Shown piece after piece: positions 23,932-61,586 of a DNA stretch of 64,000 bases. Numbering within the stretch: position 1 is the stretch's first letter; the number at the start of each line of letters is the position of its first letter. The notes under the pieces are model-generated. The model was not told the DNA's origin. It saw nothing but the letters and a program-made list of their open reading frames with translations, and did not search any database. The stretch comes from Candidatus Poribacteria bacterium (GTDB taxonomy: Bacteria > Poribacteria > WGA-4E > PCPOR2b), in assembly GCA_028819845.1 (NCBI GenBank), contig JAPPKS010000031.1, positions 186,001-250,000 on the forward strand. The letters run 5' to 3'. The translations under genes were made by a program, and so were the position numbers.

Positions 23932-24018
23932 ATCGAACAGAGGGTGTGCAATCCAGTTGCTATGCTTTTTTCCTCAATTATTCGGACGAATGGTTAAGAA
24001 GGCGAAGGGAATTTAGTT

Positions 24019-24954: not shown

Positions 24955-24964
24955 GATTACTTAT

Positions 24965-25744: not shown

Positions 25745-25766
25745 ACCATACACCGAGAGGCGCGTG

Positions 25767-28700
25767 ATGTTTCGCCAAGTCCACAAGATTTTGGGGTTTA
25801 TGATACTCCTGTCCGTGGGGAATGGTCTAGCACAAGGCTCCGAGAACGTGCAACGCAAGTTTCATGTAGCGGAAAGGCCGGCAGCAGACAACCAACTTCT
25901 TAGCGACCGCGTTCTATCACTAGCCGCCGATTCACGCTATGTGTGGGTTGGAACAGATCGGGGTTTGAGTCGGTACGATAAACTGCGCGGCGAGTGGGAC
26001 AATTTTACCGTTAAAGACGGCTTGGCGCATAACACTGTGGTTTCCATCGCTCTAGACAGCGATTTGGCGTGGATTGGTACACGTGATGGTGTGAGTCGTT
26101 TTGACGTGCATACAAATACCTGGACACGCTACATGCCGCGTGATGGCTTGGCAGGGCGAATCATCTCCTGCGTCGCTGTGGATTCGAGATTCATCTGGTT
26201 TGGCACACCAAACGGACTGTCGCGCTACGACAAAGAGACGAATAGTTGGGCGCAGAAACGTGAAAAGGACGGACTTGCCGGGGACGCTGTGACGCGCATT
26301 ACCATTGATGAAGACTACATCTGGATTGGTACACGGAATGGGATCTCCAGATACGACAAACTCACCGATTCATGGAACAACTACGACAAAAACAGCGGTC
26401 TCGTTGACAACAGAGTGACGGCTATAGCCGCAGACGGAAATTTGGTTTGGTTCGGTACGGAAGAAAAAGGCCTCAGCCTCTATGACCGGCGGAATTCGGA
26501 TTTCGTCAGGACGTATACCAAAAAAGATCAGCTGGCGAGCGATCACATTAGGGCATTAGCAGCCGATGGGACATCACTGTGGTTAGGAACCGCCGATCGC
26601 GGTGTACAGCGTTATATCTTATCTGTGAACACATGGCAGCAATACACGGTTTTAAATCCTGAAAAAACGGAAAATACGGCGCCAACTGGGTTAATTTCCA
26701 ATCACATAACGGCGATTGCACCTGACGGTAACATGGTGTGGTTCGGCACACACGAACATGGACTGGCGCGGCATGACTTGCTCAGTGGAACGTGGAAATT
26801 TTACGGCGAAGTAAAAGCGCTGAGCGACAACGATGTTAAAGATGTGGCTGTAACGGACGAATCGGTTTGGGTAGCGACGCGATTTGGATTGAATCAAGCA
26901 TCGTATCCGGAAGTTGCGGAGTTTTCGACTGGATGTGATTGGCGAACATTTCGTAAAGCGGACGGTTTGGCGGATAACTATATCACTTGTGTTTTGCAAG
27001 TGGAAGAAGACGTTTGGGTCGGTACGCCGAGTGGTTTGGGGTTGCGGCATGGAGACGAGGGTGAGTGGGTGTTTTTTTCGACGAAAGATGGACTTCCGCA
27101 TGACTTCGTGACCTGCCTGGCGTGGCAACCGGCGGCCAGAGACACCGAGAAGCAGAATTCATGGGAAAGTCCGGGGAATGTGAAGGGGAAGACTGACGGC
27201 AGCACGCAATCAGGTTTTGATTCGCGTCTATGGATTGGGACAAAAGCCGGACTTTCGACATACGAACCGCAAAGCCGCCAATGGAATACGCATCCGTCGC
27301 CATTGCAAATTTCAGGTCGTGTTAGCGACATTGTATTCGGCGGTGATTTCGTCTGGATCGCCACGGAGTATGGACTTGTTTATTATGATGGGACCTCAGG
27401 TGAATCAGGAAAACTGACCGTCAAGGACGGTTTACCTGCAGACATGATTAACACGGCTGCTATAGGCAATCGGTCTATATGGGTTGGCACACTGTCGGGC
27501 TTATCACAGTTGAGCAAATCATCATTCAAAACTCGTTCGCACGCGTCCGCCACGCACTTACCGCGTTCAAACGTCAGGGCGGTTGCCGTTGATGGCAAAG
27601 ACGTCTGGGTTGGAACTCCGTCTGGTTTGTATTGCGTTGCTGGCGATGCATTTACACATTACACACGCGAGAGCACCGATGGCGGGCTTGTTAGCGATAA
27701 TGTTAAAGCTATTGAGATCAACGGCGGCAAAGTTTGGGTCGGTACCACTGCGGGCTTTAGTGTCTTGGATAAGCATGGAAAGAAATGGTCGAAACATGCA
27801 GCTGCGGCAACCACAGAAGTGCTGCGATCCAATTGGGTAAGCAAGCTCACCGAGGATGGAACTGACATTTGGTTCGGCAATTGGAATGACTCTGCAGATG
27901 GCGCCATTGTAAAGTACGATAGACGAACAGATACCTTTCAATTCTTCGACAAAGATGACCTACCATTGAAACCCGCCGGCCGACCGATTACGCACATCCA
28001 CGTACTAACCGTGGGGGAAAATGGGGTTTGGGCCGGCACTAACGGAGGGCTGTTACGCTACGACAAAACGAAGGATTCATGGCGTCATTACACCGTGTAC
28101 GACGGTCTTCCGAACAATGAAGTCTGGAGTATCATCTTCGATTCGCCCTACGTATGGACAGCACATATTGGCGGCGTGGTTAGTCGATATTCGATGGCAA
28201 TGGATGAATGGACATCTTTCGAAATTTCGCCAAGCGAAACATGGAGCGGAGTCGGGTCCATGGCAGTTGACCCGCAATATGTTTGGGTCACGACGATGTG
28301 GGATGGGCTCAAGCGATACGAAAAATCAACGGGTACATGGACAAATGTCACGGAAGTACACGGTTTGGGTGATAACGAAGCGAACGATCTACTTGTTGAC
28401 GGTGAGCATGTCTGGGTCACGGGTTGGGGGGATGCCAGCCGATACAATCGGCGAACCGCGGAATGGAATGTCTTCAGCCGGTGGCGCGTGCTCTCCGGTC
28501 CGAATATTTACCTCAGTAGAGGTCTGAACGGAGTTTGGCTTGCATACCCATGGTTAAGTTGGGGCGATGCAATCGCCTCAAAATTTCACAATAAATCCGG
28601 TTCATGGACAACATTGAAAGTGCCGGAAATTGAAGGGGGCTATTTTGGACGTACCATGCAGGTTGTGGAATCCATTGACAGTGTTTGGTTCGCGGTGGAA

Positions 28701-29906
28701 TGGCTGGGATTGGCTCGATATAATAAAGCCTCAAACGACTGGACATTCTTCGATGAAAAAAATGGTCTTGCAAGCGGCGAGCTGCATGAGCACTCGATAG
28801 TCGTCGATGAAAACTATGTCTGGGTGGGAACGGCTGGTGGATTGGGTCGGTATGACATTGAGAGTGAGGTCTGGACGACTTTCACGCAGTCGCCATTAAC
28901 GCCGATTGGACGTGCTCCAAAAGTGTACGCCATTGCGGCTGAAGCGCGTTTTGTGTGGTTGGGAACCGCAAACGGCCTGCATCGGTATGACAAAGATACA
29001 GGCCGATGGTACTCCCCGCGACCAATGGGAAGACACGGTGAAATGGTGAATAATCCAAGCATCGCAAGTATTGCAATTGACGAAAAATATGTTTGGCTAG
29101 GTACTAACGAAGGTGTCTTGCGGTATGATAAGGCCGGAGACTACTGGGAAGTGTACACAGATGAAAACGGTCTTCCATCCAACGCTATCCGAAATGTGGC
29201 AGTCAAAAGCTACGAAGTGTGGATTGCGACGAATCATGGTGCCGCGGTATTCAACCGACTCTCAGACGATCCAAACACTTGGGAGCCGCACACACAGGAG
29301 CTGGAAATCAAAGGGATGCAAGATGTCAAAAAGTACGCACAGACGCTGTTGAGCAATGATGTCCGGTGCATCGGCGTCGGCGCTAGGTCTATATGGTTCG
29401 GTACGGACAAAGGCGCCTGCCGCTACGATAGAGAGAAAAAAACATGGAAACCCTTAATTGCAAATATTGCATCTTCATCACAAATTGCCGGATTCTCAGA
29501 GTCTCCCGCCCATCACACACCGAATATTGCCGACATCAGCGCAATCGCCGTTGATGAAGATTTTGTCTGGTTCGGCACCGAGCACGGCGCGATGAAGTAT
29601 CACCTAGAATCCGGGAAATTCGACACGTTCACTCAATCGGACGGTTTAGCGGGAAATATCGTTACGTGTATCGCTCTCAACGACGAGGAAATCTGGTTCG
29701 GATCGGCGAACGCGGGGGTCGCACGTATGGATAAAGCCACAGGTAAATGGCGCGTCTTTGACACAAGCCATGGTCTGCTCCACAATCGAGTGGAAGCCAT
29801 CGCGTTTGACGGGGACCAGCGGTGGTTCGGCACAGAGCTTGGACTGTGTCGGTATGATCCAAAAACCGAAACATGGACAAGTTATGCGGAGGGTTTCAAT
29901 CCTTGA
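25767..29906 (+). CDS. Exported Reg_prop beta-propeller repeat protein 2
   Basis: This 1379-residue protein starts at ATG 25767 (MFRQVHKILGF), 22 bases after the methyltransferase stop. A longer frame would run back into that gene. It has a Sec signal peptide ending near LAQGSE. It is built from about thirty blades like those in paralogue 1 (for example WVGTDRGLSRYDK, WIGTRDGVSRFD, WFGTEHGAMKY). The mid-protein variant blade (FGNWNDSADGAIVKYD) and the C-terminal linker (SDDPNTWEPHTQ, then KKYAQTLL) align with the same positions in the other two paralogues, showing whole-gene duplication. An extra 40-residue low-complexity loop is inserted near residues 455-485 (EKQNSWESPGNVKGK). No catalytic domain is attached. 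Confidence 0.9.
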   Translation: MFRQVHKILGFMILLSVGNGLAQGSENVQRKFHVAERPAADNQLLSDRVLSLAADSRYVWVGTDRGLSRYDKLRGEWDNFTVKDGLAHNTVVSIALDSDLAWIGTRDGVSRFDVHTNTWTRYMPRDGLAGRIISCVAVDSRFIWFGTPNGLSRYDKETNSWAQKREKDGLAGDAVTRITIDEDYIWIGTRNGISRYDKLTDSWNNYDKNSGLVDNRVTAIAADGNLVWFGTEEKGLSLYDRRNSDFVRTYTKKDQLASDHIRALAADGTSLWLGTADRGVQRYILSVNTWQQYTVLNPEKTENTAPTGLISNHITAIAPDGNMVWFGTHEHGLARHDLLSGTWKFYGEVKALSDNDVKDVAVTDESVWVATRFGLNQASYPEVAEFSTGCDWRTFRKADGLADNYITCVLQVEEDVWVGTPSGLGLRHGDEGEWVFFSTKDGLPHDFVTCLAWQPAARDTEKQNSWESPGNVKGKTDGSTQSGFDSRLWIGTKAGLSTYEPQSRQWNTHPSPLQISGRVSDIVFGGDFVWIATEYGLVYYDGTSGESGKLTVKDGLPADMINTAAIGNRSIWVGTLSGLSQLSKSSFKTRSHASATHLPRSNVRAVAVDGKDVWVGTPSGLYCVAGDAFTHYTRESTDGGLVSDNVKAIEINGGKVWVGTTAGFSVLDKHGKKWSKHAAAATTEVLRSNWVSKLTEDGTDIWFGNWNDSADGAIVKYDRRTDTFQFFDKDDLPLKPAGRPITHIHVLTVGENGVWAGTNGGLLRYDKTKDSWRHYTVYDGLPNNEVWSIIFDSPYVWTAHIGGVVSRYSMAMDEWTSFEISPSETWSGVGSMAVDPQYVWVTTMWDGLKRYEKSTGTWTNVTEVHGLGDNEANDLLVDGEHVWVTGWGDASRYNRRTAEWNVFSRWRVLSGPNIYLSRGLNGVWLAYPWLSWGDAIASKFHNKSGSWTTLKVPEIEGGYFGRTMQVVESIDSVWFAVEWLGLARYNKASNDWTFFDEKNGLASGELHEHSIVVDENYVWVGTAGGLGRYDIESEVWTTFTQSPLTPIGRAPKVYAIAAEARFVWLGTANGLHRYDKDTGRWYSPRPMGRHGEMVNNPSIASIAIDEKYVWLGTNEGVLRYDKAGDYWEVYTDENGLPSNAIRNVAVKSYEVWIATNHGAAVFNRLSDDPNTWEPHTQELEIKGMQDVKKYAQTLLSNDVRCIGVGARSIWFGTDKGACRYDREKKTWKPLIANIASSSQIAGFSESPAHHTPNIADISAIAVDEDFVWFGTEHGAMKYHLESGKFDTFTQSDGLAGNIVTCIALNDEEIWFGSANAGVARMDKATGKWRVFDTSHGLLHNRVEAIAFDGDQRWFGTELGLCRYDPKTETWTSYAEGFNP

Positions 29907-29939
29907 CGGTCCAAGGATTTCCAGCAGAGAAATGACAAT

Positions 29940-32900
29940 ATGAAGAAACAGGTGAAATGCACCATACAGATTTTGCATTACTTATTGCTAATCTCCCTGA
30001 TCGGGAGCGGTTTGGCTCAGCTTAACTCACAGGACGAAAAATCGGCTGTTCTTGAGGAATCGGCCCTTGCCCAACTGGCATCAGAAAATACGTTGGTGAG
30101 CGATAACATCCGCTGCGTTTCAACTTCAGCCGACTACGTTTGGGTAGCAACAGACCGAGGCGTCAGCATCTACCATAAGGCGGATAGCCGCTGGACGAAG
30201 TTAGATTGGGAAGACGGTTTAGTCTCGGACGATGTCACAGCGTTGTCCGCCGATCGAGAGTTTCTCTGGGTAGGTACAACTCTGGGAATCAGCCTATACA
30301 ACATAGAGAATGGCAGTTTGACGAAGTTTCAACGGCGCGACGGTTTAGCAAGCAACAAAGTCACCGCAATCGCTGTGGACGGAAATTACACCTGGGTCGG
30401 TACGGAGTCCGGTATTTCGCGTTATGATAAGACAACGGGTACATGGGCATTACAACGTGAGAAAGACAAAGATCGGTTTAACTCCATTACCGCAATTGCT
30501 GTGGAATCGGAGTATGTTTGGTTTGGTACAGAAAATGGACTACGGCGATACGATAAGTTAAAAGACGCATGGAACGCATACACGAAAGAGGACGGGCTGG
30601 TGGAAAACCATGTCCGCTGTATTGCATTAAGCCCTGATTCTGTTTGGGTGGGAACAGAGAAATCGGGTGTGAGCAAATACAGTGTAGCCAACCAATCCTT
30701 CACCGAAAGCTATACGCGGACAGATCTATTGGAAAGCGATTTCATCAGGGCGATTGCCGTTGACGGCGACAATGTCTGGTTTGGTTCCGCGGACCGCGGT
30801 ATTCGTCGGTTTATTTCAACGGTGAATACTTGGTTTAAGTACACGACTGGCAAGGGTTTAGTTAGCGACCACATTTCTTGGCTGCATGTTGATGGCGGTC
30901 ACATTTGGATCGGCACCTACGAGTTCGGTTTGGGTCAATTCGATAAAACGAACGATGGCTGGACATGGTATTCAAAGCGAGATTCGCTGGTGTCCAATCA
31001 GATCAAATCCGTCGTATCAACTGAGAAGGCACTCTGGATTGGTACGAATAAAGGCTTAAGTCGCTATGCACCTCAAAAAAAGTCGTGGAAAACGTTCACG
31101 AAGGCAGATGGTTTAGTAACAAATTATATTACGCATCTGACGAAGGGTGTGGATAATAGCACGATATGGGTCGGGACGCCACTGGGGTTAGGGGCACTAG
31201 TCGGAAAACAGTGGAGATTCTATACGGAAAGGCATGGACTGGCAAATGATTACGTTACCGGTATCAGTGCGGTTCCCGGTAAGATTTGGGTTGCGACCAA
31301 GGGGGGAGTGAGTTCTTTTTCCGTAACCGCAAACCGGGAAACTGGGATTGAACAGACTAGCGCATCAACAATTGGGCAAGACTCACCGCACGTTTCATCC
31401 GGCGTCACCCTTTATGATTCACAAACGTATCTTACAAGCAAGTGGGTAACCGCCGTGCTGGTGATTGGGCAAAATGTGTGGGCGGGCACAACAGATGGGC
31501 TGTACCGGATAAACGATGAAACAGGTGAATTTGAGCCCGTTCTGGAAGTTAGGAATTATGTTAACGCACTTTCCTCTAGTGTTGATAGGCAATTGCTGGT
31601 TGGCACGCGAAACGGCTTGTGGATCATAGGTGGCGAAAAGTCATCACATATCACGGAGGGATTGCCGAACTTGAATGTCAGGAGCGTCGCGGAAGACAAC
31701 GGTACCATCTGGGTAGGAACTCCGGGCGGTGTTGCGCGTCTGAATGACGGAAGCGTTAATCAGGTTATTACGATGCAGGCTGCCGGTTTGCTTCACGATA
31801 ATGTACGGAGCATTGTGGTCTCGGATCAGCAGGTTTATTTCGGTACTGCCGCCGGTCTCGCTATCTATAACGTAGAGAAAAATCAGTGGGAACAATATAA
31901 ACCGTATTACGACACAGAAATCCTTAAAGAGGAGCAAATTCGTTGGATAGAGTTGGATGAGCACAATCTATGGGCTCTTAATTGGTCGTCTTCTCCGAAT
32001 GGCGCAATATTAAAATTCGATCGGCGTACTGAGACTTGGATCGAATACACGAAATACGCTCTGCCTCTCTCTTCAAATGTCCCGTTTATCACCGAAATTC
32101 ACCGCCTTGCGGTAGGTGAAGAGGATGTCTGGTTTGCCGCTGGAGACGGCGGCGTACTTCGGTACAATAAAGCATCGGATACATGGACCCACATCACTAT
32201 GCCCACTGGGATACCGGGGCACCAAGCTATGCTAATCGAGCTTGACGGACCGAATGGCGTTTGGGTTTCATTCCAAGGCGGCATAGCAGGGAAGTACGAT
32301 ACGCGAACGCAGCAATGGGAGACCGTGAAGGTGACAGATTCTGGTGCAGGAACGCGCATTGAGGACATTGCTTGCACAAACGACTACGTCTGGTTCGCTA
32401 CAAATAGCGCAGGGGTCAGAAGATATGAACAAGCCACGCAAACCTGGAAATCGTACACAGAAGCGCAAGGTATGGCGTCGCGGTTTACTCCGTGGATTGA
32501 CGCGGACGGCGAAGGCGTGTGGACTAGCGGCGGTACTTCTTGGTCATGGGTCAGTGACCGCGGGGTACAAGGAGTGAGTTTCTATCGCCCAAAAGAAAAC
32601 AGTTGGACATTTTTTGACCGGAGAAACGGTTTGCGTGCAGAGGCGACCGGATACGGACAGGTTGGCAAAGATTATGTTTGGTGCTTTGGAGGGGAAGGAA
32701 TCAACAGATACCATAAAACAAGGAAATCTTGGACTTCCTTCAATTCGAGCGATGGTTTGATAGTCCATAATGTCCGTGCAGTCGCAAGAGACAGTGACGG
32801 TTTCTGGGTAGGTTCGGATGAAAGTGGTATCTGGAAGTATGCGCAAGCCTCTGGTGCATGGACAGTGTTCACTGTTGAGGACGGTTTGATTGATGGCAGC

Positions 32901-34022
32901 GTCCAACCTTACGCGCTCAAAGTTGGTCCGGAACATGTGTGGGTTGGAACGTCACAAGGATTAAGCCGATACGATAAGAGGAGGAGGACATGGATTTCGT
33001 TAATGAAGCCGGCCACATTGGCGGACCGCCGAGCCGTCTCTGTTGCTGCTGATAGCCAATTTGTATGGGTCGGAACACACCGCGGCTTGAGTCGATACGA
33101 CAAAAGGTACGACAGATGGAGACGTTTTAGGACTGAAGAGCAAGAAAACGAGGATAATGGAGACGATGAGGACGATAAAACTAAGCAAGAAAAAAGGAAC
33201 CAACTGGTGGACAACAGTGTCGTAGATCTATCTGTCGGTGTACGGTACGTTTGGATCGCGACTGAAGGCGGGGTGGGCCGGTACGACAAAATCGCTAATC
33301 GTTTTGAATCGTATACCCACGAGAACCAACTGCCGAGCGTCGATATCCGAGCGGTTGCAGAGAATGAAAGCGATGTGTGGATTGGGACGAAAAACGGTAT
33401 TGGCAAGCACAGTATTCTTTCGGAAGATCGAAATGCCTGGGAAACATTTAACACTGCGATTGAAATCCTGCCAACAGTGAAAGGTAAGTACGCTAAGAGC
33501 TTGGAAAATGATGACGTGCGATGCCTTGCAGTCGATGATTTTCGAGTTTGGGTCGGAACCAAAACGGGCGTGTCACTCTATGAAATTGAAAAAGGGACGT
33601 GGAGTACCTTTACTCAAAAGGACGGGTTGGCAAGTGACGAGGTAAGTTGTATTACTTTTGACGGGGGGCGCGTATGGTTTGGAAGCGGGCGCGGTGTGAC
33701 AGTTTATGATACGGAAAATGATACTTGGAAGGTTCTTACGGAAGCGGATGGGTTGGGTTCAAATCTAATCACGTCAATTGCAAATCACCGGAGCCAAATC
33801 TGGTTTGGCACATTCGATAGTGGAGCCACTGTGTATGACAAAATCACCGGAAAATTCACGACCTTCACCAAAGCTGATGGCCTTCCTCATAATGGCATCC
33901 TGTCGATCGCGGCTGACGGTAACTGTCTCTGGTTCGGCACACACGGCGGGTTGACCCGATACGATTCTTTAGCTGGGACGTGGACAGTCTATACTGAGCG
34001 ATTTGACTATGATGGGCTGTAG
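29940..34022 (+). CDS. Exported Reg_prop beta-propeller repeat protein 3
   Basis: This 1360-residue protein has a signal peptide (MKKQVKCTIQILHYLLLISL, cleavage after GLAQ). It is made of the same 43-residue blades as paralogues 1 and 2 (WVGTTLGISLYN, WIGTNKGLSRY, WFGTHGGLTRYD). The shared variant blade reads LNWSSSPNGAILKFDRRT and the C-terminal linker SEDRNAWETF then GKYAKSLE. A strongly charged loop (about residues 1065-1085, with NEDNGDDEDDKTKQEK) is unique to this copy. It begins 33 bases after paralogue 2 and is followed 37 bases later by the barrel-like protein gene. Confidence 0.9.
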   Translation: MKKQVKCTIQILHYLLLISLIGSGLAQLNSQDEKSAVLEESALAQLASENTLVSDNIRCVSTSADYVWVATDRGVSIYHKADSRWTKLDWEDGLVSDDVTALSADREFLWVGTTLGISLYNIENGSLTKFQRRDGLASNKVTAIAVDGNYTWVGTESGISRYDKTTGTWALQREKDKDRFNSITAIAVESEYVWFGTENGLRRYDKLKDAWNAYTKEDGLVENHVRCIALSPDSVWVGTEKSGVSKYSVANQSFTESYTRTDLLESDFIRAIAVDGDNVWFGSADRGIRRFISTVNTWFKYTTGKGLVSDHISWLHVDGGHIWIGTYEFGLGQFDKTNDGWTWYSKRDSLVSNQIKSVVSTEKALWIGTNKGLSRYAPQKKSWKTFTKADGLVTNYITHLTKGVDNSTIWVGTPLGLGALVGKQWRFYTERHGLANDYVTGISAVPGKIWVATKGGVSSFSVTANRETGIEQTSASTIGQDSPHVSSGVTLYDSQTYLTSKWVTAVLVIGQNVWAGTTDGLYRINDETGEFEPVLEVRNYVNALSSSVDRQLLVGTRNGLWIIGGEKSSHITEGLPNLNVRSVAEDNGTIWVGTPGGVARLNDGSVNQVITMQAAGLLHDNVRSIVVSDQQVYFGTAAGLAIYNVEKNQWEQYKPYYDTEILKEEQIRWIELDEHNLWALNWSSSPNGAILKFDRRTETWIEYTKYALPLSSNVPFITEIHRLAVGEEDVWFAAGDGGVLRYNKASDTWTHITMPTGIPGHQAMLIELDGPNGVWVSFQGGIAGKYDTRTQQWETVKVTDSGAGTRIEDIACTNDYVWFATNSAGVRRYEQATQTWKSYTEAQGMASRFTPWIDADGEGVWTSGGTSWSWVSDRGVQGVSFYRPKENSWTFFDRRNGLRAEATGYGQVGKDYVWCFGGEGINRYHKTRKSWTSFNSSDGLIVHNVRAVARDSDGFWVGSDESGIWKYAQASGAWTVFTVEDGLIDGSVQPYALKVGPEHVWVGTSQGLSRYDKRRRTWISLMKPATLADRRAVSVAADSQFVWVGTHRGLSRYDKRYDRWRRFRTEEQENEDNGDDEDDKTKQEKRNQLVDNSVVDLSVGVRYVWIATEGGVGRYDKIANRFESYTHENQLPSVDIRAVAENESDVWIGTKNGIGKHSILSEDRNAWETFNTAIEILPTVKGKYAKSLENDDVRCLAVDDFRVWVGTKTGVSLYEIEKGTWSTFTQKDGLASDEVSCITFDGGRVWFGSGRGVTVYDTENDTWKVLTEADGLGSNLITSIANHRSQIWFGTFDSGATVYDKITGKFTTFTKADGLPHNGILSIAADGNCLWFGTHGGLTRYDSLAGTWTVYTERFDYDGL

Positions 34023-47204: not shown

Positions 47205-47813
47205 TCACATCTGGCGGAAAAGCCCAATTACCTTGCCCAAGACTTGAACCTCAGACACAACAATCGCATCCATATCGGGATTCTCAGGTTTCAAGCTAAT
47301 TTTGTCGCCCTCATAGAAAAATCGTTTTACCGTCGCTTCATCATCAAGCAGAGCCACAACAATGTCCCCTGGGTCCGCAACACTTTGTGATTTCACAACG
47401 ACCAAATCTCCTTCCAAGATTCCTGCATCAATCATACTTGAGCCATTCACCCGGAGGGCGAAGCATGAGTCATCCTTAATCATTTCCTTGGGGACCGGCA
47501 GGCTTCCTTCTAGGTTTTCAGATGCCAAAAGGGGGACTCCAGCAGCTACACGTCCAACAATAGGGACTTCAGCCGCTTGCCGAAGTCCCTTTTTGGACAC
47601 ACCTTCTAAGATTTCGATTGCCCGCGGTTTTCCGCTGGCGCGCTTAATGTACCCTTTCTTCTCGATAGCATTCAGGTAATCGTGAGCAGCCTTTTCAGAA
47701 ATTCCGAATGCTCTCCCGGTCTCGCGAACAGTCGGTGGATACCCGAAATTCTGTAGGTGATACGAAATATATTCTAGGACTGTTTCCTGTTTTTTTGTCA
47801 ACGGTTTACGCAT
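47205..47813 (-). CDS. lexA: LexA repressor
   Basis: This 202-residue LexA represses SOS genes and cleaves itself when RecA-DNA filaments form. The N-terminal winged helix is LTKKQETVLEYISYHL and GYPPTVRETGRAFGISEKAAH. The autocleavage site is VGRVAAGVPLL (between Ala and Gly). The catalytic Ser is in NGSSMIDAGI and the Lys in DEATVKRFF. GDSM, the usual Ser motif, is GSSM here; the nucleophile is kept. AGGAGG lies seven bases upstream of the ATG. A palindrome 32 bases upstream may be its operator. Confidence 0.95.
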   Translation of the reverse strand: MRKPLTKKQETVLEYISYHLQNFGYPPTVRETGRAFGISEKAAHDYLNAIEKKGYIKRASGKPRAIEILEGVSKKGLRQAAEVPIVGRVAAGVPLLASENLEGSLPVPKEMIKDDSCFALRVNGSSMIDAGILEGDLVVVKSQSVADPGDIVVALLDDEATVKRFFYEGDKISLKPENPDMDAIVVSEVQVLGKVIGLFRQM

Positions 47814-48197: not shown

Positions 48198-50936
48198 TTA
48201 CGGGTGTCGGTGCTGCACAAAACTCACGGGAATGAGTATCAGAAGAGCGGGGATTATCACCCATTTCCATTCTGTAAAGAGCGGTTCTATCCCCAGGATT
48301 GGATGTGCGTAAGGGAGATAGACAATAAACACGTGTAAACCCATGCACGCCAGAATAGTAATTAAAAGGGGCACATTCGCAATGACTCTTTTGAGAAGGG
48401 ATTGCCAAGGATGTCGATGGCATTGAAAGGTTGCGGCCAATTGTGTGAAGATTAAAATGGAACATGCGACTGTTTGCGCTTGAATCTGACCCGAAGATTG
48501 CAGCGTCGCCACAAACCCGACAATTGTCATGAGTGCAATCCAAAGGCCGCGAACTAGGATATCAAAGCGATAGTCTTTTGAAAGGAAGGGTGAAACATTA
48601 TGGCTTCGGTTGTGCTTCAGTTGACCTTGTATTCGATCTTGGCCGAGCGCAATTAGCGGAAATAAATTGACGAGTAAGTGGATCCAGATGATATGATGCA
48701 GAGTAAGCGGCATTGGGAATTCGCGCCACAACTGGAGGCCGGATCCGAGCTGAAGGATGAGTCCAATGAAAAGCGTGGTCATCTGCGCTAGCGTACACGT
48801 CAACAACCAACGCATAGAATTCTTAAGATTACTGTGAGCTTCACGCGCGTGAAGCAGCAGATCGGCAATGAAACGAAACCCGTCCTTAAGTATTAAACAA
48901 CCCGCGTTATGTTGGATTACGGGCGACGCACATGACGCAGATGCAATACTGACATCAGCCGCTTCCATTGCCCTTGTATCGGTAGGTGCTTGTCCGCAAA
49001 AACCGACCGAATGATTGTTGTGTTTGAGTTTTTCTACCAGCTTAAGTTTTTGTTCCGCAGATGGGCTGCAATATACAAGTAGCCGATTGGCAATCGAATC
49101 GTAATGCTCTTCGCTAAATTGGTCTAGATTTGAGCGGGATACAACAGCATTTCCATCCTGGATAATTCCAAATTCTCGCGCAACATCTGTCGAATTTTCC
49201 TTGTCTTTGTGGGTAATCAGCACTACTTTAACACCTGCACCTAAGCAGAACTCAACACTCTCTTTAGAACCTTCATATTCCTGCTGTGAAAAGGCGACTA
49301 ATCCCAAAAAAGTTAAGTTTCGACCTATTTCGTCTTGCGGCGGAAGGGAATTGCGACTTCGATAGGCGACGCCAAATACTTGGGCTCTGTTATCCGACAA
49401 ATATTGAGCAGCTAGTCGAATCATCTGTTTTTGGTCAAAACTTATGCGATCCATGGATTCGCCAATTTGCATTCGTTGAGCGCCCTGTATTATAGCGTCG
49501 GGGTGACCAAACATAATATTCAAAAACCTGTTTTCTTGCGTTTCCAAAACAACTGCGTCAAAGGGCGGGCCTGCTGTTTCCGTTATTTCAGCGACTTTCG
49601 TTAAAGCTGCATCATAATGCTCTAAATCCAATCCGATTTGGTCCGCCAGCTTAATCAGTGCTTCAGCGACAACATCTTCCGACGGGTTTTGATTGATTAA
49701 GTCGCGGCGTTTGCCATGAGTCTTGCAAAGTGTCGCTAACAATATCAACAGTTGAAAACCAGGCGAGATTGCGCCATTCGGTGGCAGAGACGCATCTAAT
49801 GTCTCGTCCGTCTCTTGTGGCACAGTCTCAGCATTCTTTAACCTATCTTCCCACGATTCTCTGTCGATGAGTTCTTCATCAATAAAAACACGAGACGTGG
49901 ACATTTGCTCTTTCGTGAAATTACCAATCTCATTGACGCATACGGCTGTTATGCTGCTTAGCCGCTCAAGATTTACCACATCGCGAATACCAATGCCCTT
50001 TTTGAACAGTTTGTGAGCATTTCCTGCCAGAGTTGCCCGACACGTTGAAACCACCCCGTCGGGAATGGAAGCGAGTACAAACCCTAATCCAAGAAAAAGC
50101 AATGATTGCCAATTTTCCTCAAAACTTTTGCGTTGAAAGTACCAAGTCGCCAAGACCGCAACCCCTCCTAATATCAGGCCGGTAATCTTAAATCGATTAT
50201 AAACCGAGTCCATCTGAATCTCTGCTTCCGACTCCAAATTAAGCTCGGTAGGGGCACTGCGGTACGGTTGGTTGATTTCTAATTCTTCGCCTGTTCCGAC
50301 GACTATGGCGCGTCCCTCGCCTTGTAACACATACGTGCCCGCAAAAACCATGTTAGCCTGTTTTTCAGGCGGTACGGTCCTATCGGGCATGTCATCGGTT
50401 GTTTTTTGCGTTGACATCGACATGCCGAATAGCGGAGTTTCATCAACAACCAGATCGTCCGCGTCAACTATTCGCGCGTCCGCGGAGATGAAACTCCCTT
50501 CAGCCAAGACAAGCAAATCTCCCGGCACAACCGATTCGGGTGTGACATTTTCAAGTCGTGCATCTCGAATGACCGAGACCGTAATTTTTAGACTGCGCTT
50601 AATTGATCGGCGATGCGAGCGGGATTTGCTATCTTGGAAAAACTGCCACAGCAAGTGCAAGAAGAGAACACCAAAAACTGCGATCGCCTTTAGAAGAGAG
50701 TGGTTGGGATAGGTATGGATGATTCCAACGATGACTAAAATAACAACTGTCACGCTAGTCAGTTGCCTTGCGAAGAAGGAAAGGATAGGCCTTTCATGGG
50801 ATGGTAGAATTTCGTTGTCGCCGTATTCACGTCGCCGTGCACTTGCTTCATCAGCGCTCAACCCACGCTCAAGATCGGTATTAAACTCGTGTAGAATATA
50901 TGGAATTTTCTGGGTGTACCAATTTGATGTGTTCAT
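48198..50936 (-). CDS. P-type cation ATPase homologue lacking the catalytic motifs (pseudoenzyme)
   Basis: The protein has 912 residues from ATG 50936 (MNTSNWYTQK); a GTG at 50981 in the same frame adds 15 codons, and neither has a clear SD. The architecture is that of a P2-type cation ATPase: N-terminal cation-ATPase segment (GLSADEASARRREYGDNEI), paired helices, actuator domain, M4 helix, P and N domains and a C-terminal helix bundle. The catalytic motifs are altered. DKTGTLT is NEIGNFT, so the phosphorylated Asp is Asn (codon 49932-49934). TGES is FGMS. KGAPE is FGHPD. TGD is THK. GDGVND is GQAPTD. PEGLP in M4 is PDGVV. The frame has no stop or shift. A transport cycle driven by ATP is not expected; a scaffold, sensor or regulator is possible. 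Confidence 0.88.
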   Translation of the reverse strand: MNTSNWYTQKIPYILHEFNTDLERGLSADEASARRREYGDNEILPSHERPILSFFARQLTSVTVVILVIVGIIHTYPNHSLLKAIAVFGVLFLHLLWQFFQDSKSRSHRRSIKRSLKITVSVIRDARLENVTPESVVPGDLLVLAEGSFISADARIVDADDLVVDETPLFGMSMSTQKTTDDMPDRTVPPEKQANMVFAGTYVLQGEGRAIVVGTGEELEINQPYRSAPTELNLESEAEIQMDSVYNRFKITGLILGGVAVLATWYFQRKSFEENWQSLLFLGLGFVLASIPDGVVSTCRATLAGNAHKLFKKGIGIRDVVNLERLSSITAVCVNEIGNFTKEQMSTSRVFIDEELIDRESWEDRLKNAETVPQETDETLDASLPPNGAISPGFQLLILLATLCKTHGKRRDLINQNPSEDVVAEALIKLADQIGLDLEHYDAALTKVAEITETAGPPFDAVVLETQENRFLNIMFGHPDAIIQGAQRMQIGESMDRISFDQKQMIRLAAQYLSDNRAQVFGVAYRSRNSLPPQDEIGRNLTFLGLVAFSQQEYEGSKESVEFCLGAGVKVVLITHKDKENSTDVAREFGIIQDGNAVVSRSNLDQFSEEHYDSIANRLLVYCSPSAEQKLKLVEKLKHNNHSVGFCGQAPTDTRAMEAADVSIASASCASPVIQHNAGCLILKDGFRFIADLLLHAREAHSNLKNSMRWLLTCTLAQMTTLFIGLILQLGSGLQLWREFPMPLTLHHIIWIHLLVNLFPLIALGQDRIQGQLKHNRSHNVSPFLSKDYRFDILVRGLWIALMTIVGFVATLQSSGQIQAQTVACSILIFTQLAATFQCHRHPWQSLLKRVIANVPLLITILACMGLHVFIVYLPYAHPILGIEPLFTEWKWVIIPALLILIPVSFVQHRHP

Positions 50937-51113
50937 TTTTTTTGAAGAGGTTTGCGCGGAGCGGCATAAAGAAAAGTACACGAATCCGCTGTTCGATGTC
51001 CGTAAGTTCTATTTCGACGTGATACGTGGAATAAATGCAAGTAAACGAATTACATCGTTAAGACACATTGGCTTATAGCTTCATCTCATTCCACTATTCA
51101 CGCACGAATTTGT

Positions 51114-52025
51114 TTATTCTCCTATATCCACGGTTGCGCCGGTAGAATCAATTGATAGAATCTTAACGTTGCAGGACACACCGTGCATTGCAAAAGCTTG
51201 ATTCATTTGATTGGCGATATTTTGCTCTTCCTTAATGCAATAAGCGGCAACACTTGGCCCCGCGCCGCTGAGCGCAATCCCTAATGCACCTGCTCTCATA
51301 GCGGCTTCAGCAACGTCGTCAAATCCTGGTATGAGCGATTTCCGATAAGGTTGATGCAACCGGTCACGCATCGCGAACGGCAACAATTCTAGGTTGCCAG
51401 TTGCGAATGCAGCGACGAGTAACGAGCTGCTACTTACGTTGTGGACGGCGTCGCAAAATTTTACAGTGTCCGGCAAGACACCGCGTGCCCGTTCTGTCGG
51501 CATCTGGAAATCTGGTATGGCTATGGCAACGGAAAGATTGGGATGACAATCCAATTTGACGGTGTGTACTCGCCCGTCAAGTGTGAGTGATACTACCAAC
51601 CCTCCTAGAAGAGAAGCGGCAACATTATCTGGATGCCCTTCAAGTGCTGTTGCGAAATTGAGTAGTTGGTCTCGCGAAAATGGATCGCCGCAAAGCGCGT
51701 TAGCTGTCAATAAACCGCCGAGAATAGCCGTGCCGCTCCCACCTAACCCTCGAATCGCTGGGATGCCATTCTCTATACGTAATCTGAGTCCTCTGGGTTG
51801 GTAGCAGGTTTTTTCGAAAACCACATTTGCGGCGCGATAGGCTACGTTATCAACATCTTTGGAAATAATTTGCGAATCAATCCCGCTAACGAGAATTTCA
51901 ATGCCAGAATTAATCTCCTCGAGTTCAACCGTACTATAAAGTCGGAGGGCCAACCCGAGCACATCAAAACCAGGCCCCAAATTGGTAGTGCTTGCAGGGA
52001 TCCGGGCGATTGATTTGCGCGGCAT
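51114..52025 (-). CDS. thrB: Homoserine kinase
   Basis: This 303-residue GHMP kinase phosphorylates L-homoserine in threonine synthesis. The N-terminal motif is ARIPASTTNLGPGFDVLGLAL, typical of ThrB. Motif 2, the ATP loop, is GIPAIRGLGGSGTAI where GLGSSAA/GLGSSG is usual. Motif 3 is LSGAGPSVAAYC. It lies nine bases after the aminotransferase gene on the same strand and may be co-transcribed with it for amino-acid synthesis. Thr synthase and homoserine dehydrogenase genes are not in view. Confidence 0.93.
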   Translation of the reverse strand: MPRKSIARIPASTTNLGPGFDVLGLALRLYSTVELEEINSGIEILVSGIDSQIISKDVDNVAYRAANVVFEKTCYQPRGLRLRIENGIPAIRGLGGSGTAILGGLLTANALCGDPFSRDQLLNFATALEGHPDNVAASLLGGLVVSLTLDGRVHTVKLDCHPNLSVAIAIPDFQMPTERARGVLPDTVKFCDAVHNVSSSSLLVAAFATGNLELLPFAMRDRLHQPYRKSLIPGFDDVAEAAMRAGALGIALSGAGPSVAAYCIKEEQNIANQMNQAFAMHGVSCNVKILSIDSTGATVDIGE

Positions 52026-52033
52026 AAATTTTC

Positions 52034-53203
52034 CTAGTTATTGATGCGTGAAATTGCCGCGTCCATGCGGACTAATGCTTCACTGATATTTTCTAAGGAA
52101 TTTGCATACGAAAGTCTGATGTATCCGTCGCCGAATTTGCCAAACCCGGTACCAGACAATACGGCAACGCCCGCTTCTTCAAGCAGATAATCCTCTAACG
52201 CTTCGCACGACATTGGAACTTGCGAGACATTAGCAAAAACGTAAAAGGCGCCAAGCGGTGTGATACAACTGATACCATCAATGGAATTTAAACCTTCGAC
52301 AATCAAATTACGCCGCTGCCTGAACTCGGTTACCATTTGAATAACGAAATCTTGCGGCCCCTTTAAGGCTTCAATTCCAGCTATCTGTGTGAACGAACAG
52401 GTACAAGAATTGGAGTTAATCATCAATTGCGTAATTTTATCCGCCATCGGTTTGGGTGAAATTCCGTATCCCAACCGCCATCCTGTCATCGCATAGGTTT
52501 TAGAATGACCTTCAATAAGAATTGTCCGCTCCTTCATCTCAGGAAGGCTGATTATACTTTCATGGACACCTTCATAAAGAATGCGCGAATAAACCTCATC
52601 TGTTAATACATAAAAATCGTACTTAATCGCTAATTCCGCGATGGCTTCGAGATCAGATTTTTCCAAAATACCACCCGTTGGATTTTGGGGCGAATTGATG
52701 ATGAGAAGCCGTGTCCGATCCGAGATTGCTGAGGCAAGATCTTCAATTCGGAAGCGGAAGCCAACGTCTTCACGCAGCGGCAGCGGAACCGGCGTGCCTC
52801 CGACAAAGTTTATGACCGATTCGTAAACTGGAAAGCCGGGGTCGGGATAGATGACTTCACTTCCTGGTTCGGCGAGTGCGAAAATAGTAAAAAAGATAAT
52901 GGGTTTGGCGCCGGGAGTAACTGCGACTTCTTCAGGATGGACTATGACCCCTCTGGTTTCTGAGATATGTTCCGCGGCGACTTCGCGAAACTCAACTAAT
53001 CCCGCGGAGGGACCGTATCCGGTGTATCCATCCTTCATCGCCTTATACCCCGCTTCGCAGATGTTCATCGGGGTATTGAAATCCGGTTGCCCAATTTCGA
53101 GATGTATGATATTCCGGCCTTTTGCCTCTAAGCCTTTTGCTTTTGCCAACACTTCGAAGGCGGATTCAGTTCCTAGCCGACGCATTCGCTGCGCAAATCT
53201 CAT
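52034..53203 (-). CDS. Class I/II pyridoxal-phosphate aminotransferase (aspartate aminotransferase-like)
   Basis: This 389-residue fold-type I aminotransferase has the opening LGTESAFEVLAKAKGLEAKG and IIHLEIGQPDFNTP, NSPQNPTGGILEKSDLEAI, YDFYVLTDEVYSR, and the PLP lysine in EGHSKTYAMTGWRLGYG. The C-terminal region has the substrate Arg in GDGYIRLSYANS. It most resembles aspartate or aromatic aminotransferases; the exact amino acid is not certain. The gene lies nine bases upstream of thrB. Confidence 0.92.
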   Translation of the reverse strand: MRFAQRMRRLGTESAFEVLAKAKGLEAKGRNIIHLEIGQPDFNTPMNICEAGYKAMKDGYTGYGPSAGLVEFREVAAEHISETRGVIVHPEEVAVTPGAKPIIFFTIFALAEPGSEVIYPDPGFPVYESVINFVGGTPVPLPLREDVGFRFRIEDLASAISDRTRLLIINSPQNPTGGILEKSDLEAIAELAIKYDFYVLTDEVYSRILYEGVHESIISLPEMKERTILIEGHSKTYAMTGWRLGYGISPKPMADKITQLMINSNSCTCSFTQIAGIEALKGPQDFVIQMVTEFRQRRNLIVEGLNSIDGISCITPLGAFYVFANVSQVPMSCEALEDYLLEEAGVAVLSGTGFGKFGDGYIRLSYANSLENISEALVRMDAAISRINN

Positions 53204-53245: not shown

Positions 53246-54283
53246 TTATTCAGAATATTTCATTACGAAACCGTTGTTACCGGTAATCCAAATGTGGTTC
53301 GCGTCCAGAATAAACAGGTCGTTGACTGGAATTTTACTAATCATCGTCCCTTCAATGCTCTGGTTTTCCCACGTTTTGCCGCCATCGATTGTATGAATTA
53401 CGATGTTGATTCCCATATCGCCCCCAACTGCCCAACCCATCTTTTTGTCGACAAACTGCACGCTAGAGAGCGTTTCCTGCGTATTACTCGATTGAATTTT
53501 CCATCTATCGCCGCCATTTGTAGTGTGCAGCACAACGCCGCCTTCACCTACCGCCCAGCCGGTTGAGGCATCTATAAAAAATATATCTTTAAGGGTATCT
53601 TCGACATTTGTGGGTTGATCTGCCCAGGTTTTTCCACCATCCGTGGTTTTTTTAACGATCCCGTTTTGAACGCCGGCTTGCGGATTCACAAAAACACCCG
53701 CTATCCACCCGGTAGATTCGTCAATAAATTGCACGCAGTTGAACAATCCCTCTGGCTCCTCTCCAATTCGTGTGGGAAGTACGCCCCCTTGTAGGATATT
53801 CCATATTTTGCCTCCGTTAGTTGTTTGTAAGATGGTTTCTCCCATGCCCACCGCGTAACCGAATTCTTCGCTTACAAAGTGAATATCATACAACCAGTTG
53901 TCGACTTTACTAGTTTGGATATCCCATTGTTTGCCGCCGTTTGATGTCCCGACAATCATCCCATTCGCCCCTACAGCCCAACCGTGCTTCTTGTCATAGA
54001 AAAAAACATTCGAGAGAATCTGATTGACGGCAATCTCCGCTTTTTCCCATGTCTTCCCGCCGTTCGTCGTACGACCGATATAACCCGGATTCTCCATTTC
54101 CAAAGCTGAAACCCCGGCGACCCATCCTTCCCTCGCACTCACAAATATAATCGCATTATAATCTCGAATATCCTCATTATCCTGTTCCTGTAGAGCAAAC
54201 CATTGTCCGTCGCCGTAAAGCGTGGTTGTCATGACCATTGATGCAAGCAAAAACGTTGTCAGAAACGCTGTCTTGATGTACAT
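53246..54283 (-). CDS. Exported Ycf48/BNR-repeat beta-propeller protein
   Basis: This 345-residue protein has a signal peptide (MYIKTAFLTTFLLASMVMTT, cleaved near LYGDGQW). It is made of repeats with GWAVGANGMIV, TTNGGKTW, GYAVGMGETIL and GWAVGEGGVVL, the pattern of Ycf48-like/BNR propellers, about six blades. In cyanobacteria Ycf48 helps photosystem II assembly, but relatives in other bacteria are of unknown role; nothing photosynthetic is seen here. It is the first gene before the aminotransferase, separated by 42 bases. Confidence 0.87.
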   Translation of the reverse strand: MYIKTAFLTTFLLASMVMTTTLYGDGQWFALQEQDNEDIRDYNAIIFVSAREGWVAGVSALEMENPGYIGRTTNGGKTWEKAEIAVNQILSNVFFYDKKHGWAVGANGMIVGTSNGGKQWDIQTSKVDNWLYDIHFVSEEFGYAVGMGETILQTTNGGKIWNILQGGVLPTRIGEEPEGLFNCVQFIDESTGWIAGVFVNPQAGVQNGIVKKTTDGGKTWADQPTNVEDTLKDIFFIDASTGWAVGEGGVVLHTTNGGDRWKIQSSNTQETLSSVQFVDKKMGWAVGGDMGINIVIHTIDGGKTWENQSIEGTMISKIPVNDLFILDANHIWITGNNGFVMKYSE

Positions 54284-54608
54284 TTTTTAGTTGACTCCTT
54301 TCAAAATTTAGCGTAGTATAGCACCCATCGCGGTTGCTGTCAAGCACAAACAAACCTTGATCTATGCGAAGCATATTTCCCAAGGGAGCGTTGCGTCATT
54401 TTAGGCAAATTCCAATTATTGTCAAGAAAATTATTCAAAGTTCCGTTTTTGTTTGCACCGGTGTATACAGCCCATGATTTCAGCTTCGGTTTGATGGCAG
54501 TCCAAGGCTATTCGCTGTATAGGTTATTGAGGTTTAATATCGGGAAACCAGCGGTGTGCACGCATTGTAATAGTGGGATTCAATGACATTCGTAAGGAGG
54601 TAGGATAC
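54284..54608. other. Divergent spacer between the Ycf48-like and PhyH genes
   Basis: These 325 bases sit between two divergent genes. Apart from the PhyH ribosome-binding site (AAGGAGGT at about 54594-54601) I see no RNA gene or clear promoter. Confidence 0.4.
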
Positions 54609-58271: not shown

Positions 58272-61200
58272 TCACTTTAATAGCACCAAATTTTGCACGA
58301 ATGTATTCAGCTCACCGTTGCGGCTTGCAACGCGCAAGACATAGAAGTAGACTCCGCTGCCAACCAAATTTCCAGCCTGGTTACGGCCGTTCCAATGTGC
58401 TGCGTTGTCCCGCCGGTGGTACCTCCCTGCTGGTTGAAGCCCGAGATTTGAACGGCTAACTAGTTGTCCCAACGCCGTATAAATCTCAATCTCTACACTA
58501 GCTGGCGCCGCAAGTTCATAGGGTATCCACACCTCCGGATTAAATGGGTTTGGATATACCGGCAGTACGCCCGTTTTCGCAACTATGGGAAACGCACAAT
58601 TCGGGTTGGACAGCTGTTTCGCCGATTCCACCCAATATATTAACGCTTCTATCGCCTTCCGAGCATTGGATGCTAGCTGTGGTTGGCGGCGTAACACCGC
58701 TAGCGTTTTACCCATTTGGTTAAAATCCATCTCGGTGTAAGTAGGACCATTAGCGCTGGATTTCGCGGGCGGACCCGCGTCGAAATTACTGCGCGAAGCA
58801 TTGTGCATCATGCGCGTCAACGTTGGGGCTGCATTGGCGTCCACTTTAAAATGATTTGCCACTAGCACCAAGTCTTCAACGTCAACAACCGCATCTCCAT
58901 TGACATCCACGTACGGGTCAGTAATCTGGTCGCTGGCTTTCCCGAAGTGCTTTGCAACTAAGACTAAATCGAAAATGTCTATCGTGGCATCTCGGTTTAC
59001 ATCCCAAACGGAAGCGTTATTCAACATAACGCCAGGTGTGATACTACTCCAGTTGCGGCTTGGCAAATTTGCCTGGTTCTCCGCCTTGACTCTCGCGTAG
59101 TATGTTGTGTCAAACTCTCCCGTAAAGGTGTGGCGGGTTATCGCGCCATTTACCGTCTCATCGTATAGCATACCCGATTGAAAATCTCTAGAATCTACAT
59201 CAATCTGGACGTGATAGGCGCTAATACCGCTTGTGTCGTTGACGGCATCCCATTCAAGCGTGATTTCGCGTGCGTTTCCCGTCTCATTCAACAACAAGTT
59301 GAGATTCGACACCGTAGGCGGTGGCGTGCTATCAATTTTGAACCCATAATGACTAGCGTCGGTCCAATAACCTAACGAATCGCGCGCGCGAACATGCACC
59401 CACCAGACACCGTCGCTCAGCCCAGTGAATGCTAACGCATTACTTTTGGAAAGTGCCTCCGGGTGTGTGTCGGGAACAGTTGCGGGTTCTCGATTCAAGA
59501 TGAAGCTGTATTGTTGCCTGGCGTCCACCATAGGTGAATTCAGCAACTCCAATTTTGGCGAGTTGCTTGCATACCAGCGATTGAAGTCTGGATGGGTGTT
59601 CGAGGTAACGATTGGAGGCAACAGTGGCGTATGGTCAACAATTACGACACCGTCGCTGTATACGTCGGTAGGTGGATTCTGCGAATCCGAAACAATCGCA
59701 CGAAGGTAGTAACTGCCCTCCAACAGAGCATCCGTATTCCAAGTGAACACCGAGCGGTCTTGAGTCAAACCGGATTTAATCAATGTCGAACCACCCGGGA
59801 GGTTGTTACGGTCATAAAACAGCGCGACTGTGAAATCGTCGTTGTCGGAGTCCGATGCTTCCCAAGTAATTTGAAAGGTCTCATCAGAGACAGCACCGTC
59901 AGCATTTGGAGACGTGAACTGAAATGACGGGGCGGTGTTAAGGCGAAAAATAGCGTGGTGAGCAATGTAAATCTCCTCAAGCGGCTCCAACATAGGGAAT
60001 CCACGCTTTCGCCACGCGATAGCGATGTCCGTGATGCCTTGGGGTAAGTCGTTGACTAGAATCTCCCAGAGCAAATCGGTACCGTCGGAGATTCCGTCGT
60101 CATCAACCCTTGGCTGGTGGTCGATAGAATCAGGTGTATCAAAGATATCCCATAAAATACTTGCTACTGTTCCTTCGACATTTTCGCCCTTCGTGTTTGA
60201 TCCCAATCCTGCGGCGTGACCAGTCCACCACTGGTTGGATTCGATATTCGGTACGGATTGATTGAGGTAGCCGGTTACGTTCAAAGCGCGGTTATCGACG
60301 GCTGCCTCCATAAACGCCGCCCAACCTTCATTAAAGGCGAAACCGGCATCCGATACTGTTTCAAGGCGGTGAGAACCCCGATACCTGCCCTTCGGCACGG
60401 CGTTGTAGTTGTAACCGTACGCCGCGGTCATAACAGCGTGTGCATATTCATGGAACATAATTGTACGCGTCCACTGATCGCCGTGGGCGAGATTAATTGT
60501 TTCATTTGATACTTGTCCTTCAATTGCATCAGGAGCGTAGTAGGAGATGTTCTCAACGCTAGGCCAAATGACACGCACAGGACGGTCACGTTCCCAACCT
60601 AGGCGGTTGAGTAGAAAGCCGTGTGCAAGTTGAACGGTGTTAAAAATATACCCAACCGCGCGATTCGAGTTTTGAGAATTTAGGGATAGGTGAATCGTAG
60701 TGACACCATCGGGAACATTGCGAACCGTTTCTGATGTGAACGCATATACCTTTGCCTGAGGGGCTCCAATTGACAAGACGCTGTTGTCAAATTTTACGAC
60801 GACATAAAGATTGCGGGACGAACTCCTATTAATATCCGAGTGCGAAAGATTTTCAAAAATGAATTCTCCTCGATCGTCAGCGACGGTTTCGTCAATTTTG
60901 ATATCGTCATGGTCAGGCAAATCGAGGTAGAGCGCAACATGGGGGCGATGCACCGGAAGTTCCGCCTCCTCATTGTCGTTGAAATATACTACCGAACCCC
61001 GAATGGTTACATCACCCGCGGAGTTTGGGGCGGTTCGCACCTGCGCATGGGTTTCTAGAATTGGGTTGTCGAGCGGTTGGTTAAACGGAACAGCGCTAAC
61101 TTGAGCGTATCCTGACGCCACTCGGAGGTATACGTAGAAATGCTCAATTATGGTTTGACCGTTTGCAAGCCCCGCGTAGATTGACGCTTGCAAGGGATAC

Positions 61201-61586
61201 ACTCCCGGTTCCTTCACGTTGAACGCCACGCTGAATTTCTGATCCGGGGCATATGGAGAAAAGTAGACTCGGTCAAATTGAACAGGCGAACGGGATGAAA
61301 TCCCTTGAGGGAGGCGAAACTGAATGCGGGAGTGGATAGTCTCAAGCAGGTTCGATCTAATTGAAAAGATGAGAGTGGCATCTTTACCAACTCGCGGTGC
61401 ACGCGTAAGCTCAAGGGCGCCATTGAACGCCTGTGGACGGCGGGGTTGATGGGCTGATGCGGAGGAGAGTGTTTTAGCACAGAATATGGCAATCGAAAGC
61501 CATGAAAACAACAATACGAGCCGCACAAAACTGACAACGCGAGTTGCCAAATGTAGCATGTAAAACGAATACTTGCTTGCATTCAT
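58272..61586 (-). CDS. Secreted zinc-metalloprotease-like protein with dockerin and FlgD-like C-terminal domain
   Basis: This 1104-residue protein has an N-terminal hydrophobic segment (LVLLFSWLSIAIFC) consistent with export. A metalloprotease-like region carries HEYAH at residues 379-383 and FNEGWAAFMEAA at about 418-429; Glu in the latter may be the third zinc ligand, as in gluzincins. Further on are beta-sandwich and fibronectin-III-like segments (VSNLNLLLNETGNAREITLE), then a dockerin type I pair of calcium loops (DVNRDATIDIFDLV and DVNGDAVVDVEDLV). The C-terminus (PNPFNPEVWIPYELAAPASV then GSGVYFYVLRV) is a FlgD-like Ig fold used for surface attachment or secretion in related genomes. 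It stands alone, convergent to the HtrA gene. Confidence 0.85.
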   Translation of the reverse strand: MNASKYSFYMLHLATRVVSFVRLVLLFSWLSIAIFCAKTLSSASAHQPRRPQAFNGALELTRAPRVGKDATLIFSIRSNLLETIHSRIQFRLPQGISSRSPVQFDRVYFSPYAPDQKFSVAFNVKEPGVYPLQASIYAGLANGQTIIEHFYVYLRVASGYAQVSAVPFNQPLDNPILETHAQVRTAPNSAGDVTIRGSVVYFNDNEEAELPVHRPHVALYLDLPDHDDIKIDETVADDRGEFIFENLSHSDINRSSSRNLYVVVKFDNSVLSIGAPQAKVYAFTSETVRNVPDGVTTIHLSLNSQNSNRAVGYIFNTVQLAHGFLLNRLGWERDRPVRVIWPSVENISYYAPDAIEGQVSNETINLAHGDQWTRTIMFHEYAHAVMTAAYGYNYNAVPKGRYRGSHRLETVSDAGFAFNEGWAAFMEAAVDNRALNVTGYLNQSVPNIESNQWWTGHAAGLGSNTKGENVEGTVASILWDIFDTPDSIDHQPRVDDDGISDGTDLLWEILVNDLPQGITDIAIAWRKRGFPMLEPLEEIYIAHHAIFRLNTAPSFQFTSPNADGAVSDETFQITWEASDSDNDDFTVALFYDRNNLPGGSTLIKSGLTQDRSVFTWNTDALLEGSYYLRAIVSDSQNPPTDVYSDGVVIVDHTPLLPPIVTSNTHPDFNRWYASNSPKLELLNSPMVDARQQYSFILNREPATVPDTHPEALSKSNALAFTGLSDGVWWVHVRARDSLGYWTDASHYGFKIDSTPPPTVSNLNLLLNETGNAREITLEWDAVNDTSGISAYHVQIDVDSRDFQSGMLYDETVNGAITRHTFTGEFDTTYYARVKAENQANLPSRNWSSITPGVMLNNASVWDVNRDATIDIFDLVLVAKHFGKASDQITDPYVDVNGDAVVDVEDLVLVANHFKVDANAAPTLTRMMHNASRSNFDAGPPAKSSANGPTYTEMDFNQMGKTLAVLRRQPQLASNARKAIEALIYWVESAKQLSNPNCAFPIVAKTGVLPVYPNPFNPEVWIPYELAAPASVEIEIYTALGQLVSRSNLGLQPAGRYHRRDNAAHWNGRNQAGNLVGSGVYFYVLRVASRNGELNTFVQNLVLLK

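Follow-up and report, generated by a model that had tools for sequence, protein, structure and literature searches.

The locus

The window, a 64,000-nucleotide stretch of a contig from the sponge-associated phylum Poribacteria, carries a gene for a degenerate P2-type ATPase, referred to below as the pseudo-pump, which lies on the minus strand at the end of a gene cluster running in the order YCF48-like protein, aminotransferase, thrB and pseudo-pump. The features of the locus are:

47205-47813, minus strand: lexA, directly downstream of the pseudo-pump
48198-50936, minus strand: pseudo-P2-type ATPase gene, 912 aa (open frame, Pfam and NCBIfam matches)
51114-52025, minus strand: thrB, homoserine kinase (TIGR00191, 268 bits against a cut-off of 168), adjoining the pseudo-pump and co-directional with it
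52034-53203, minus strand: aspartate-type PLP aminotransferase, next upstream of thrB (synteny, family matches)
53246-54283, minus strand: YCF48-like beta-propeller protein (PF14870, 106 bits), first gene of the conserved cluster
54315-54343, minus strand: candidate cluster promoter, TTGACA-17-TATACT, 11/12 sigma-70-like (consensus match only)
54398-54425: second sigma-70-like match, 11/12, preceding the cluster (consensus match only)

Sigma-70-like matches were in total no more numerous than in shuffled sequences, and the two listed may serve as a weak indication of a promoter for the cluster.

Gene model and family assignment

The frame of the pseudo-pump starts with ATG at 50936 and extends over 912 codons with zero internal stops, as the sequence-only reading of this DNA had claimed. 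The upstream GTG at 50981 appears to be a less likely start, because the relatives begin at a M-S-N-W/F-Y stretch.

In Pfam searches the protein matched E1-E2_ATPase (PF00122) with 93.7 bits against a cut-off of 28.1, and Cation_ATPase_C (76 bits) and Cation_ATPase_N (59 bits) well above their cut-offs, with the HAD hydrolase domain slightly below its own (25.9 versus 26.4 bits). The superfamily model TIGR01494 was passed (91.4 bits, cut-off 62.3) and the cut-offs of the curated P2A Ca2+ ATPase equivalogs were missed (TIGR01522, 231 versus 798; TIGR01116, 187 versus 703). The closest solved chains by sequence were SPCA1 and LMCA1, aligned over almost the full length. By descent, as judged from homology of the A, N, P and membrane domains and from the fold match, the window protein is a member of the P-type ATPase superfamily.

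The phosphoenzyme cycle is what defines P-type ATPases, and P2-type pumps need for it the acceptor Asp, the Glu of TGES and the Asp residues of GDGVND. Among the features marking a P-type ATPase as an enzyme, DKTGT, the TGES Glu and the intact TGDGxND hinge with its Mg2+-binding Asp are all absent from the window protein, the hinge having lost the first Asp and kept the second.

Loss of catalytic and ion-binding residues

Sites were compared across 53 aligned members of the window's order, with SERCA numbering for the reference sites. The altered segments, with residue numbers of the window protein in brackets, are:

50418-50429, minus strand: FGMS (170-173) for TGES, A domain; Phe at the Thr position in 53/53, Glu lost in 53/53
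50049-50063, minus strand: PDGVV (292-296) for PEGLP, TM4; Pro292 invariant, Glu replaced by many residues
49914-49934, minus strand: NEIGNFT (335-341) for DKTGTLT, P domain; Glu336 in 51/53
49497-49511, minus strand: FGHPD (476-480) for KGAPE, N domain; Phe in 50/53, Lys (K515) lost in 53/53
49206-49214, minus strand: THK (575-577) for TGD, P domain (site table)
48978-48995, minus strand: GQAPTD (648-653) for GDGVND, P domain hinge; first Asp (D703) lost in 53/53
48783-48809, minus strand: WLLTCTLAQ, TM5; N768 and E771 lost in 53/53, W710 newly invariant
48657-48683, minus strand: IHLLVNLFP, TM6; N796 lost in 52/53, D800 lost in 53/53

All six motif replacements previously read from the window protein are thus present at the positions claimed, and only the loss of GDGVND needs qualification: its first Asp is gone, while the second (SERCA D707, D653 in the window) is kept in all 53 proteins. 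The changes cannot be ascribed to chance, because the rest of the order is altered at the same positions.

The losses extend to further N-domain residues that are invariant in canonical pumps, which we take to be SERCA E442, F487 and K492. At the ion site, N768, E771, N796 and D800 are replaced in the window protein by T, Q, H and N, respectively. Among the acidic ligands of P2A pumps, E771 and D800 have disappeared throughout the order and the position of E309 is variable; the TM5/TM6 site of the order is acid-free and often polar (Thr, Gln, Gln, Thr). In family f5 the same site reads H, L, E and F/V/L, and it is therefore not conserved across the class.

Among 61 degenerate rows, the acceptor is Asp in 30 rows, Asn in 26 rows and neither of these in 5, and none carries DKTGT. 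The 31 acceptors other than Asp are Asn, Glu, Gln, Ser or His, the window protein having N335. It should be added that G354, G516 and D707 (SERCA numbers) are retained in all 53 members of the order, that the window protein has Lys at the HAD lysine K684, where 52/53 have Lys/Arg, and that the T625 position is mostly Thr/Ser in degenerate members. Structural glycines, the A-domain GD/AD/R and P292 have been retained, and catalytic, nucleotide-binding and ion-binding residues have been lost jointly.

New residues have become fixed, namely F170, E336, F476, R709, W710, R796, R841 and W844, and the clade-specific set also takes in D792, Q838 and R850. By the structural model, the clade-specific residues R709, W710, D792, R796, Q838, R841, W844 and R850 would map to, or next to, the base of TM5 and the loops L6-7 and L8-9, regions that homology places on the cytosolic side. 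A positive band like that of TMEM94 was sought in the net charge of these loops, and little difference from canonical pumps was seen (L6-7, +1.4 versus -0.2; L8-9, +2.25 versus +1.94). Residue loss together with new fixation fits repurposing and does not fit decay.

Predicted structure

An AlphaFold2 model computed with 34 sequences had a pLDDT of 83.7 and a pTM of 0.77. Foldseek aligned it to the E1 form of SERCA (4h1w, 4kyt) with a TM-score of 0.80 and to SPCA1 and LMCA1 in E1-Ca with a TM-score of 0.76. As modelled, the pseudo-pump keeps the P-type fold.

Distribution and origin

An alignment-based search of genome contigs matched MAGs of Candidatus Poribacteria, and a single-sequence search of the same contigs gave no matches. 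Of the Poribacteria genomes searched, 85/85 gave a match to the family, a count that takes in a few contig fragments, one weak match of the P1B-pump kind (G051) and one genome (G083) with a canonical P2 copy and no degenerate one. The degenerate gene is near-universal in the Poribacteria examined, and in the window's class all full-length homologues that were inspected proved degenerate. Frames were intact in the large majority of the genomes, with identities of 23-50%. One homologue (L155, in genome G081, contig C15) was split over two open frames of 403 and 629 aa, owing to a frameshift or an assembly error.

No second P2 match of canonical-pump strength was seen in the 73 genomes of the window's order, and G083 and G084, both outlying, were the only genomes in which canonical P2 copies were seen. 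Two PF00122 genes are present in the genome that the window comes from, the pseudo-pump and a canonical CopA-like P1B pump, and no other P2 ATPase was found in it.

In trees calculated with motif columns masked, all degenerate proteins fell on one side of a single branch, with an SH-aLRT of 100 in a quick tree of 58 rows and 100/100 in a mixture-model tree of 28 rows; some branches are long and the order inside the clade is uncertain. DKTGT-bearing close homologues, whose presence in the clade would have spoken for recent decay, were looked for, and none was found in this monophyletic group. The deepest degenerate member belongs to genome G084, which represents another family group of the phylum and carries the degenerate copy alongside canonical P2A pieces that group with canonical pumps of other bacteria. 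This co-occurrence suggests duplication before repurposing, and the simplest reading is that, after duplication or acquisition, one copy was repurposed and the canonical copy was lost from, or is absent in, the class. The acceptor changed state about five times on the tree, repeatedly from Asp to Asn.

Selection

For 14 close pairs of the pseudo-pump, NG86 dN/dS was 0.074-0.144, and for thrB of the same genomes, where its sequence was present, 0.047-0.193. The protein is under purifying selection, in the range of the neighbouring thrB and far from the values near 1 that decay would leave. Pairs with an Asn acceptor (L080/L084, 0.13; L011/L012, 0.097) were about as constrained as Asp pairs. Given some five acceptor changes and similar constraint in Asn pairs, selection is not visibly on phosphorylation. 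The low dN/dS together with the single clade bears out the view of a retained pseudoenzyme, and the same dN/dS values, together with the clade's age, lead to the rejection of recent decay.

Conservation of the neighbourhood

The full cluster order, or the part of it nearest thrB, is found again in families f1-f5, f7 and f8, and the succession of aminotransferase, thrB and pseudo-pump is preserved in most genomes. At 39 of the 47 degenerate loci with enough upstream sequence, the gene immediately upstream is thrB in the same orientation. The linkage is not obligate: in five genomes of genus g2 (family f1) the pseudo-pump is elsewhere and not beside thrB, and thrB is also missing beside it in G073, G074 and G084. 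At the loci L051-L053 and L055-L057 of g2, where upstream sequence was present, the pseudo-pump follows rng and a short ribosomal-protein-like gene, whose start we read as that of ribosomal protein L27. The adjacent lexA of the window was not seen in the clustered neighbourhoods of relatives. The association with thrB and the aminotransferase points to threonine/aspartate metabolism, with a putative functional link.

Possible roles of the pseudo-pump

We consider it probable that a P2-type pump has been turned into a non-pumping pseudoenzyme, which now serves as a putative membrane receptor or scaffold tied to aspartate-family/threonine metabolism. The source would have been one copy of a duplicated P2A pump, in which the residues that bind ATP and cations, and those that serve aspartyl phosphorylation and dephosphorylation, were lost and whose A, N and P domains would still fold. 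With catalytic and binding residues lost, pumping by the Post-Albers cycle is not expected. The present role would be that of a non-catalytic membrane receptor or scaffold, in which the cytosolic head and the membrane-proximal parts (L6-7, L8-9 and the base of TM5) may provide a conserved surface, newly acquired, that meets a ligand or partner from this metabolism; a membrane sensor or scaffold connected with threonine and aspartate is probably the function. What counts against a pseudo-pump is the partial HAD active site that is left, consisting of D653, Lys/Arg at K684, Thr/Ser at T625 and an acceptor Asp in roughly half the members, and what counts against the metabolic link is the non-obligate association with thrB.

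The next most likely explanation after the receptor or scaffold, albeit an unlikely one, is a putative passive or gated transporter or channel that would move a neutral solute, such as a threonine-pathway amino acid, independently of ATP, the cytosolic head acting as the gate. Preservation of the membrane domain and of the TM4 proline, the acid-free and often polar TM5/TM6 site of the order and the linkage to the aminotransferase and thrB are in keeping with such transport, which is opposed by the divergence of the former ion site in family f5; the tree and dN/dS are equally compatible with a receptor, a scaffold or a passive transporter. Of similarly low probability is the conversion, by this bacterial phylum, of a P2A pump into an ATP-independent receptor or facilitator that acts on an aspartate-family amino acid and is co-transcribed with homoserine kinase; if true, this would give the P-type fold a new role and establish a family of pseudo-pumps in prokaryotes.

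Residual catalysis comes after these: a pump still active through a non-canonical site made of D653, the conserved Lys/Arg and the acceptor Asp where present seems rather doubtful. D653 in 53/53, Lys/Arg at K684 in 52/53 and an acceptor Asp in 30/61 degenerate rows speak for it, as does the precedent of ERMA, where D427 was reported to be essential (PMC13322241). Against it stand the non-Asp acceptor in 31/61 rows, the window included, with dN/dS no nearer to neutrality; the loss of the TGES Glu, D703, K515, E771 and D800 from all 53 members of the order; and a structural study in which TMEM94 showed no ATPase activity and whose authors contest how it has been classified (PMC12134183).

A regulatory subunit, pairing with an active P-type ATPase such as the CopA-like P1B pump or with another membrane enzyme, is improbable. 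The window's genome does have a canonical P1B pump, but its gene is unlinked (contig C16 versus C31) and no P1B pump is known to pair with a P2 pump. The suggestion, made from the sequence, of a regulatory subunit for a P2 pump is disfavoured, as neither this genome nor the order offers a canonical P2 partner. Finally, a decaying gene headed for loss and kept by chance is very hard to credit, since the lost motifs and the split homologue in G081 are outweighed by the intact frames that the large majority of genomes have across 23-50% identity, by dN/dS of 0.074-0.144 and by the new residues fixed at the old catalytic positions.

Comparison with known systems

The P2A Ca2+ ATPases SPCA/PMR1, LMCA1 and SERCA, which were the best matches by sequence and fold, share the fold, domain order and membrane helices with the pseudo-pump, which differs from them in lacking the residues for phosphorylation, dephosphorylation, nucleotide binding and ion binding. 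Human TMEM94/ERMA, in which DKTGT has become DKQGI and GDGVND has become GSSANL and TGES is missing (PMC13322241), is the nearest published analogue. It resembles the pseudo-pump in its degenerate P-type ATPase architecture, but is located in the eukaryotic ER, is about 1356 residues long, retains the acceptor Asp and has other substitutions. TMEM94/ERMA was absent from the best 60 of 131 PDB matches to the Poribacteria family profile, and the resemblance is likely convergent. In the apicomplexan guanylyl cyclase PfGC-alpha a P4-ATPase-like domain puts the P-type ATPase fold to use in a signalling protein (PMC7858053); unlike the pseudo-pump it is fused to a cyclase, is of P4 type and has an acceptor Asp that is apparently required.

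Whether the P-type fold can serve without the phosphoenzyme cycle is openly argued for TMEM94/ERMA, two groups disagreeing on its being an ATPase (PMC13322241, PMC12134183). With a clear canonical ancestor, dozens of Asp/Asn intermediates and a fixed neighbourhood, the Poribacteria family makes this question testable in bacteria. No report of a bacterial or Poribacteria P-type pseudoenzyme family was found in the literature searched, which covered only a minority of subscription papers, and the search for FUPA literature gave nothing useful. Since the window protein passes TIGR01494, automatic annotation would be expected to call these genes P-type ATPases, even though their motifs make pumping unlikely.

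P2A ATPases on contigs of Clostridia/Oscillospiraceae (L112, L115, L137, L142 and L143) have TGDD, TGAE, TGVE or TGEA for TGES, DKTGV/L, and TGDSxxD (e.g. TGDSVQD) for TGDGVND. Unlike the pseudo-pump, they keep the acceptor Asp, TGD, D703/D707 and the ion ligands, a much milder change, and are possibly a second, independent variant family.

Other features of the window

On the plus strand, a MutS protein of 1274 aa (7238-11062) appears to bear an intein between MutS domains III and V, with an Intein_splicing match barely over the cut-off (37 bits) and a LAGLIDADG_3 match. Further along the same strand, three large neighbouring proteins of 1334, 1402 and 1360 aa (19927-34022) contain many Reg_prop beta-propeller repeats. 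A 1104-aa protein on the minus strand (58272-61586) combines dockerin type I and FlgD Ig-like domains.
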